Source: Candidatus Woesearchaeota archaeon | GTDB taxonomy: Archaea; Nanobdellota; Nanobdellia; Woesearchaeales; JAGWAF01 | NCBI GenBank assembly: GCA_018303205.1 | Contig: JAGVYP010000065.1 | Coordinates: forward strand, 1-44,305 | Length of the DNA: 44,305 nt | Direction: 5' to 3' | Part shown: piece after piece, positions 3,017 through 42,022 of the stretch | Numbering within the stretch: the stretch's first letter is position 1 | Layout: every line of letters starts with the position of its first letter | The notes under the pieces: model-generated | The model's database searches: none | Told to the model about the DNA's origin: nothing | The model's input: the letters and a program-made list of their open reading frames with translations, nothing else | Made by a program: the position numbers and the translations under genes

Positions 3017-3071
3017 GGAAAATAAGAAAAGCTTTTATATTCAAGAAAGAAAAGAGAGTTAAGGTGATCCT

Positions 3072-3395
3072 ATGTCAGCTGAAGAAAGTAGGGTAATGAC
3101 CCGATTTCGTTTGGAAGTGAATGACCATGCTCTTTTTTGTAGAGATGCGATAAAAAAAGGAAATCAAAGAGAGGCTAAAGAATGGTTTAATGAACTTATA
3201 CTTATGGAAGATAATTGGACGACTGCATTAGCAAAATTAGATAGACCCCTAGTTGCTACTGGAAGCTGGGCAAGGGGATATAAGATTCTGGATACTGCGC
3301 CGTTAAAACAATTAGCAAGGGCAAGGCTAGAAATTGTAAGAACTGCGATCAATGATTTATTCCCTCAGTTAAGGGCTAAAGGTTGGATTCAGTAA
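3072..3395 (+). CDS. Small helical protein, unknown
   Basis: This 107-aa protein is predicted to be almost all helical, with charged and aromatic residues (MTRFRLEVNDHALFCRDAIKKG, EAKEWFNELILMEDNW, LKQLARARLEIVRTAINDLF). There is no signal peptide or membrane segment, and no family is recognised. An AAGGTGAT ribosome-binding site 5 bp before the ATG and a CTTTTATATT box at about 3032-3041 support both gene and start. Its last 7 bp overlap the 3' end of the convergent gene at 3389. Confidence 0.6.
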   Translation: MSAEESRVMTRFRLEVNDHALFCRDAIKKGNQREAKEWFNELILMEDNWTTALAKLDRPLVATGSWARGYKILDTAPLKQLARARLEIVRTAINDLFPQLRAKGWIQ

Positions 3396-41701: not shown

Positions 41702-41784
41702 AGAAGATATATTATTAAGATGTTTATAAAGATTTGGTAGGATAAAAGTGAACAGGTTTTTGATAGTATTAAAAAAATATTGGG

Positions 41785-41898
41785 CGGCGTGGGCGGGACT
41801 TCCCGAATCATGTTACTGAGTTCTTTTGAACCCGCATGGGATCGGGTGACCCCACCAAGGCTTCAACTGGGCGCAGTACCAAATTGTGCCACCACGCC
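41785..41898 (-). tRNA. Class II-type tRNA with GAA (Phe) anticodon and a 26-nt T-loop insertion
   Basis: Read on the minus strand from 41898: acceptor GGCGTGG pairs with CCACGCC, U8, D arm GCAC/CTGC with A14, G18G19 and A21. The anticodon arm is CCCAG-TTGAAGC-CTTGG (one mismatch, anticodon GAA). A variable arm of 7 bp (TGGGGTC-ACCC-GATCCCA) follows. The T arm GCGGG-TTCAAA...T-CCCGC is interrupted by 26 nt. Removing the insertion gives an 88-nt tRNA. A long variable arm normally marks Leu or Ser tRNAs, not Phe, and residue 73 is G. A TATATAAAA box 26-27 bp upstream would start transcription exactly at G1. It may be a spliced tRNA, an unusual tRNA or a decayed one. Confidence 0.6.
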
Positions 41899-41951
41899 TT
41901 TGCCCAATATGAGTGCGAAGTTTTATATACTTGTTCTCATTGAGTTAATGT

Positions 41952-41983
41952 GATCGGGTGATCTTGCCAGGGTTTCAACCTGG
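41952..41983 (-). repeat. Partial copy of the neighbouring tRNA (anticodon and variable arms)
   Basis: On the minus strand CCAGG-TTGAAAC-CCTGG makes a perfect 5-bp anticodon stem with the same GAA anticodon, followed by CAAGATC-ACCC-GATC, matching the variable arm of the tRNA at 41785. The ACCC loop and GATC are identical, and base changes keep the pairing. Acceptor, D and T arms are absent. On the plus strand this is a hairpin followed by a T7 run and preceded by a TTTTATATAC box at 41921. Confidence 0.55.
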
Positions 41984-42022
41984 TTTTTTATTTTATTTTG
42001 AATTTTTAGTATTCTATGATTT

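Follow-up and report, generated by a model that had tools for sequence, protein, structure and literature searches.

Among the known systems closest to the locus analyzed here are the bacterial allo-tRNAs, reportedly described by Mukai et al. in 2017. Allo-tRNAs are serine tRNAs with foreign anticodons that insert serine at leucine codons in E. coli, and some of them were suspected to be parts of transposons or toxin-antitoxin systems (PMC7609411). Nematodes have class II code-breaking tRNAs, the nev-tRNAs, for which no mistranslation was detected (PMC4300185). In CreTA, a type VIII toxin-antitoxin system, both partners are RNAs (PMC8501985).

The window is the whole 44,305-nucleotide stretch of DNA that was analyzed, a contig from a Candidatus Woesearchaeota archaeon. 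It contains a tRNA-like RNA (the core) and a divergent gene for an antisense RNA. The family to which they belong shares with allo-tRNAs a class II tRNA with a non-serine anticodon and, judged from its identity elements, probable serine identity. It differs in having a 7/5 acceptor/T branch, not the 12-bp 8/4 or 9/3 branch of allo-tRNAs, and in being archaeal, with a T-loop insertion, an outer helix, NUN-restricted anticodons, and a cognate antisense RNA gene. The nev-tRNAs are likewise of class II and break the code by carrying anticodons that belong to other amino acids (PMC4300185), but they have leucine identity, are eukaryotic, have no known antisense partner, and are not known to be mobile. 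As in CreTA, the putative toxin and antitoxin are small RNAs without a dedicated protein and translation would be the target. CreT sequesters tRNAs and CreA, which is crRNA-like and retains remnants of a CRISPR repeat, guides Cascade through a partial match, whereas the Woesearchaeota core is itself tRNA-like and its partner is a direct, extended antisense RNA that needs no CRISPR. Archaeal tRNA genes with T-loop introns share the insertion, as in the tRNA-Phe of the host genome, but they are genuine genes without an upstream antisense gene or an outer helix. In-frame mobile repeats, among them the Rickettsia palindromic elements, are small, protein-free, and inserted within protein genes; the Woesearchaeota module differs in encoding two RNAs whose structure and pairing are selected. 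Antisense-controlled type I toxin-antitoxins and plasmid RNAI/RNAII set a copy-specific antisense RNA against a structured target, which here is a tRNA-like RNA and not a toxin mRNA or replication primer. None of these systems unites a tRNA and an antisense RNA against it in one mobile element, we found no counterpart among open-licence papers, and to our knowledge a tRNA that spreads with its own antisense RNA as a protein-free unit of ~250 bp is undescribed.

The tRNA-like core and its family

The minus strand at 41785-41898 encodes a class II tRNA-like RNA with a GAA anticodon and G73; its variable arm has 7 bp, and its T loop carries an insertion of 26 nt. The RNA folds as GGCGUGG-UG-D arm-CCCAG UUGAAGC CUUGG-UGGGGUC ACCC GAUCCCA-U-GCGGG UUCAA[26 nt]GU CCCGC-CCACGCC-G. 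As the initial annotation had described, U8, A14, G18G19, A21, U33, and GAA at positions 34-36 are all present, the 7-bp acceptor stem is perfect, and the variable arm is of class II, with one G•U among its pairs. The insertion lies between positions 58 and 59. Two mismatches, C13•C22 and C29•U41, were absent from that annotation, and the full feature exceeds 41785-41898, taking in an outer helix at 41777-41910 and an antisense RNA gene that reaches to about 41999. Also missed were the multi-copy mobile family, the upstream cognate antisense RNA gene of each copy, the covarying leader/trailer helix, and the apparent selection on the anticodon. The parts of the window module are as follows.

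41777-41910 (-): tRNA-like core RNA with outer leader/trailer helix; scored by covariance model R1 and supported by compensatory changes
41902-41910 (-): outer helix 5' strand, AUAUUGGGC, pairing with 41777-41785; covariation such as GGGC/GCCC, AGGC/GCCU, and GUGC/GCAC
41777-41785 (-): outer helix 3' strand, GCCCAAUAU, which takes in G73 in the precursor; covariation
41899-41901 (-): one-sided AAA bulge at the junction of outer helix and acceptor stem; AAW in the family (A 76%, A 80%, and A/U 92% at -3, -2, and -1)
41892-41898 (-): acceptor stem 5' strand (G1-C72); fold and covariation
41873-41889 (-): D arm resembling that of tRNA-Ser in the same and related genomes; the blastn matches here that ARAGORN can name are tRNA-Ser genes
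41855-41871 (-): anticodon arm, with anticodon GAA at 41862-41864; fold
41837-41854 (-): 7-bp variable arm with loop ACCC; fold and covariation
41793-41835 (-): T arm, split by the insertion; fold
41800-41825 (-): 26-nt T-loop insertion after position 58, a presumed intron
41785-41792 (-): acceptor 3' strand and discriminator G73 (41785)
41915-41929 (+): BRE (GCGAAG) and TATA (TTTTATATA) of the antisense RNA promoter; the motif of genuine tRNA-gene promoters, localized on the antisense strand and not the sense strand
41950-41999 (+): antisense RNA gene
41967-41983 (+): antisense RNA hairpin whose loop, GUUUCAA, is complementary to the anticodon loop; fold
41984-41999 (+): U-run terminator of the antisense RNA

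The window core was matched by neither ARAGORN nor Rfam, the latter not even at E = 10; tRNA-gene search tools miss the family because of the T-loop insertion. Covariance model R1, for which the window sequence was one of the eight building sequences, gives the window core 140 bits compared to ≤49 bits for the genuine tRNAs of the same genome. The tRNA-like fold in the window is far beyond chance. The family scores mostly 58-147 bits, and genuine tRNA-Ser of some relatives reaches up to 60 bits.

The host genome (G000) is 85% complete in 74 contigs and has 21 tRNAs by RF00005. The initial annotation had raised the question of a normal tRNA-Phe(GAA), and one is present at G000:C57:18683-18823. 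It is a class I tRNA with its own T-loop insertion, and its presence rules out the window core as the sole tRNA-Phe of the genome. This gene (L021) apparently has two insertions, one of them at the same T-loop place as in the tRNA-like family. Contig C2 of the same genome has a tRNA-like sequence with a T-loop insertion (L016:1207-1335, minus strand), separated by ~165 nt from a genuine tRNA-Ser(TGA). This sequence has no antisense partner and is possibly an ordinary intron-bearing tRNA.

Searching 99 genomes with blastn yielded another copy in the host genome (77% over 230 nt) and further copies in other families of the order. The host genome carries four copies, on contigs C9, C65, C66, and C33. 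About 92 distinct loci with an antisense RNA were collected in Woesearchaeota, all sharing the core fold, and those members whose records are named come from Candidatus Woesearchaeota and from Nanoarchaeia/Nanoarchaeota archaea. When the phylum as a whole was sampled at E 1e-16, 19 genomes were positive, of which 18 fall inside the order; the remaining one (G383) belongs to the same class outside the order and has the upstream matching segment too. In an alignment of eight sequences, 95% of the cells of the cloverleaf and outer helix are paired and 13 pairs have double changes, a covariation signal that is abolished by shifting the pairing partners. With 87 sequences, standard pairs fill 93.6% of pair cells and compensatory changes occur in 31 of 34 pairs (724 cells compared to 210 in shuffles). 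The covariation rules out a pseudogene or a chance fold. Decay to a pseudogene, an outcome the initial annotation had allowed for, is contradicted by structure and pairing kept across dozens of genera.

Two side branches were observed. Genus g201 (L069, L070, L075, L077-L079, and L094-L096; nine loci) has 2-9 tRNA-like cores per genome; the upstream antisense RNA and the AAW bulge are mostly missing, and several cores have a CAG or GAA anticodon and G73. In L083, a divergent second kind of core (1824-1956 and 3055-3229; 43-48 bits) has its own antisense partner and is interleaved with the main kind.

The antisense RNA partner

Nearly every member has, 45-110 nt upstream, a segment that duplicates the variable arm of the core together with the anticodon arm or D arm. 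This segment encodes an antisense RNA of ~45 nt, divergent to the core, and has a BRE/TATA promoter of its own and a U-run as terminator. In the window, antisense positions 41952-41979 pair with core positions 41840-41867 over 28 continuous nucleotides, counting G•U pairs, from the anticodon loop to the variable arm. The promoter motif GAAACCTTTATAAAG was learned from 37 genuine tRNA genes; it scores 6.0 bits on the antisense strand compared to 3.7 on the sense strand and is localized on the antisense strand only. The antisense RNA starts ~30 nt past the TATA, at the complement of the variable arm, and a hairpin with a U-run forms its end. A 12-nt window with at least 10 T marks the terminator in 76 of 92 loci, compared to 0 of 92 on the sense strand.

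Duplex energies rank the own core first for nearly all antisense-bearing loci, compared to 2 of 40 for genuine tRNAs used as a control. Each antisense RNA also pairs best with the core of its own copy within single genomes. The upstream repeat and the core differ by transitions in a directional manner: A>G 386 compared to T>C 83, and C>T 127 compared to G>A 28. The direction is the one that G•U pairing tolerates in 84 of 86 informative loci, a count in which the loci are related, so the p-values overstate independence. The core-core control was symmetric, and both directional comparisons were matched for AT drift. Loci were preselected by antisense pairing in the first version of the test; a repeat with symmetric selection gave the same result. 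These data show that the complementarity of the antisense RNA is selected and copy-specific. By computation, the antisense RNA pairs specifically with its partner RNA, as the antitoxin RNA of a type VIII system does.

Other readings were considered. The upstream repeat is not a sense RNA or split-tRNA half, as it is the opposite strand that the hairpins, G•U pairs, promoter, and terminator agree with. No C/D or H/ACA boxes were seen by eye and Rfam gave no match, which sets aside a guide RNA. The upstream TATA as the promoter of the core was also rejected: in most loci its distance to G1 is ~8 nt shorter than in genuine tRNA genes, and the BRE lies on its other side.

Two variants of the arrangement were seen. 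Upstream of position 1501 in L068, the antisense gene and its promoter are tandemly duplicated beside a single core; between L068 and L066, the core and the nearest antisense RNA differ in a coordinated, G•U-compatible manner. In L045:727-815 and L074:1059-1153, the upstream repeat is joined straight to the T arm, an arrangement that recombination between the repeats, with deletion of the promoter and the 5' half, would give.

Dispersal and genomic setting

The copies are dispersed and tandem, and the tandem arrays number up to five copies (L083). L083 also has a copy, together with its antisense gene, that is missing at the orthologous place in L063. Elements also lie within long surface-protein genes, in frame and in the sense direction (L066, L068, L080, L097 with two, L165, and L185; the in-gene count is limited to these). 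One such gene holds the element in G054 and G259 and is empty in other genomes, including G094 and G305, which have 6 nt at the element's place. The family thus varies by presence and absence at orthologous sites, as mobile elements do. One candidate junction has a short A-rich repeat. The surface-protein ORFs of L185 and L080 each contain several different element-derived in-frame insertions, some of which appear to derive from other tRNA-like elements. Some same-strand ORFs merely begin at the T-arm ATG (for example, L148) and were not counted as in-gene copies, and short ORFs of 80-120 aa on the strand opposite the elements look spurious.

Neighboring genes are mixed in orientation at the 68 of 92 loci that are intergenic. 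No conserved partner protein was found; the one neighbor shared between loci occurs at five of them (L046, L053, L059, L089, and L161). There, in five genomes from different families, the gene directly downstream of the core (0 to ~170 nt away) encodes a homologous multi-pass membrane protein. By eye, we take this protein to be a TctA-like permease. A scan of the family loci with the tRNA-gene promoter motif gave no dedicated, well-placed core promoter on the sense strand, and the core may be transcribed by read-through or from the shared TATA.

Serine identity elements and proposed function

The identity elements of archaeal SerRS include G73 and G30-C40, and leucine requires A73 (PMC9976931). 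The family has the body of a tRNA-Ser: G73 in at least 110 of 119 members, G1-C72 in 86 of 86, G30-C40 in 66 of 87, and a long variable arm. The window copy keeps G73 and G1-C72 but has A30-U40. G73 is not the A73 of a tRNA-Leu, which the local tRNA-Leu does have, and the GAA anticodon of the window sits in a class II, serine-like body and not in the class I body with phenylalanine identity of a functional tRNA-Phe. Among 89 loci the anticodons specify leucine (45), phenylalanine (21), isoleucine (17), and valine (2); a few, such as ATC in L165, come from an automatic parser and may be wrong. A serine anticodon occurs in 1 of the 89 antisense-bearing loci (L194), apparently a genuine tRNA-Ser next to a partial copy. 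Of the 89 loci, 85 have A at position 35, whereas positions 34 and 36 vary; Y32 and R37 are kept. The Y32 and R37 pattern predicts an anticodon loop competent for decoding, and we read the anticodon pattern as probable selection for decoding NUN codons, because A35 is retained while its neighbors vary. The initial annotation's class II, serine-like body with a non-serine anticodon, allo-tRNA-like and possibly a misreader, stands; its picture of a lone odd phenylalanine anticodon gives way to the A35 pattern.

Its intron-like T-loop insertion proved to be near-universal (89 of 92 members, 14-80 nt) and resembles that of the genome's own tRNA-Phe. Splicing of the insertion would restore UUCRANU. 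A motif like a bulge-helix-bulge appears in the folds of some members (L043, L044, and L057), and the minimum free energy folds of other members, including the window copy, are without it.

On these sequence features, we give an even chance to a selfish two-RNA module resembling a toxin-antitoxin, in which a serine tRNA that misreads hydrophobic codons is held inactive by the antisense RNA. Somewhat more tentatively, the module may be a protein-free mobile addiction module of archaea, its toxin a serine tRNA that mistranslates hydrophobic codons and its antidote a copy-specific antisense RNA, possibly released by a virus or by loss of the locus. We infer transcription, splicing, serine charging, and toxicity of the core and a role in addiction or defense. 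The leader and trailer would be removed and the T-loop insertion spliced out. The mature core would carry serine, read leucine, phenylalanine, isoleucine, or valine codons (phenylalanine for GAA in the window), and put serine at hydrophobic positions. The antisense RNA would pair with the variable arm and the anticodon (or D) arm, unfold the core, and keep it inactive. Loss of the short RNA through locus loss, transcription shut-off, or infection would then release a stable tRNA. The case for this toxin-antitoxin reading is that serine at leucine, phenylalanine, and isoleucine codons should do harm, that the antisense RNA has a recognizable promoter, that tRNAs are stable, and that copy-specific immunity combined with mobility is typical of addiction modules. 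Should the core be charged with serine, this would amount to a novel means of poisoning translation and the module would be among the smallest conceivable selfish addiction modules; if true, this would help to explain the recurrence of tRNAs with wrong anticodons in compact genomes.

Several results run against the toxin-antitoxin reading. The core is without a clear promoter on the sense strand, the nine loci of the genus g201 branch keep cores without the antisense gene, and five distant genomes keep the core right upstream of the same permease gene. Potentially mistranslating nev-tRNAs gave no detectable mistranslation in vivo in nematodes (PMC4300185). RNase P RNA was found in 4 of 4 genomes tested. 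Maturation of the core by RNase P or RNase Z is not certain because G73 is predicted to be locked in the outer helix of the precursor.

Chief among the rivals is a switch based on RNA processing in read-through transcripts. In this unlikely alternative, the fold would be a self-silencing signal in read-through transcripts or mRNAs, where RNase P, RNase Z, or the splicing endonuclease would cleave it, and antisense pairing would block folding and protect the transcript; the module would be a switch for host genes and the anticodon would be secondary. It accommodates the missing sense promoter, the sense and in-frame orientation of all copies within verified long genes, an antisense RNA that spans the central arms of the fold, and the cores directly upstream of the permease in five families, a conserved position that fits regulation better than pure selfishness. 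It leaves A35 and the conserved G73, G1-C72, and G30-C40 unexplained, and the intergenic majority with mixed neighbors speaks against it.

Antisense control of transposons or plasmids is the model for another, distinctly doubtful reading, in which the antisense RNA of a selfish element limits its own mobility or copy number. The tRNA-like RNA would then be a substrate for mobility, such as a primer or a signal for packaging used by a machine whose genes lie elsewhere, and not a toxin. The dispersed, tandem, and in-gene copies, the insertion polymorphism, the lack of an encoded protein, and the copy-specific antisense RNA agree with such an element. However, we identified no mobility protein or target-site signature at the family loci, and the anticodon selection and serine identity would go unexplained.

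A beneficial regulated tRNA for deliberate serine-for-leucine, -phenylalanine, or -isoleucine ambiguity, yielding a statistical proteome or surface-protein diversity with the antisense RNA as dosage control, seems improbable. It draws on the same identity and anticodon evidence as the toxin-antitoxin reading, and allo-tRNAs do put serine at leucine codons in E. coli (PMC7609411). Nevertheless, it has no need of a copy-specific antisense RNA or of mobility, serine at hydrophobic positions is expected to be harmful, and the anticodons vary freely between copies. Degenerate tRNA-Ser paralogues (pseudogenes) with a duplicated upstream fragment are a highly improbable source, for although the upstream segment does copy part of the core and repeat fusions exist (L045 and L074:1059), the paired cells and double changes, the directional divergence, and the conserved promoter and terminator oppose it, and the covariation and directional divergence refute it as a general account.
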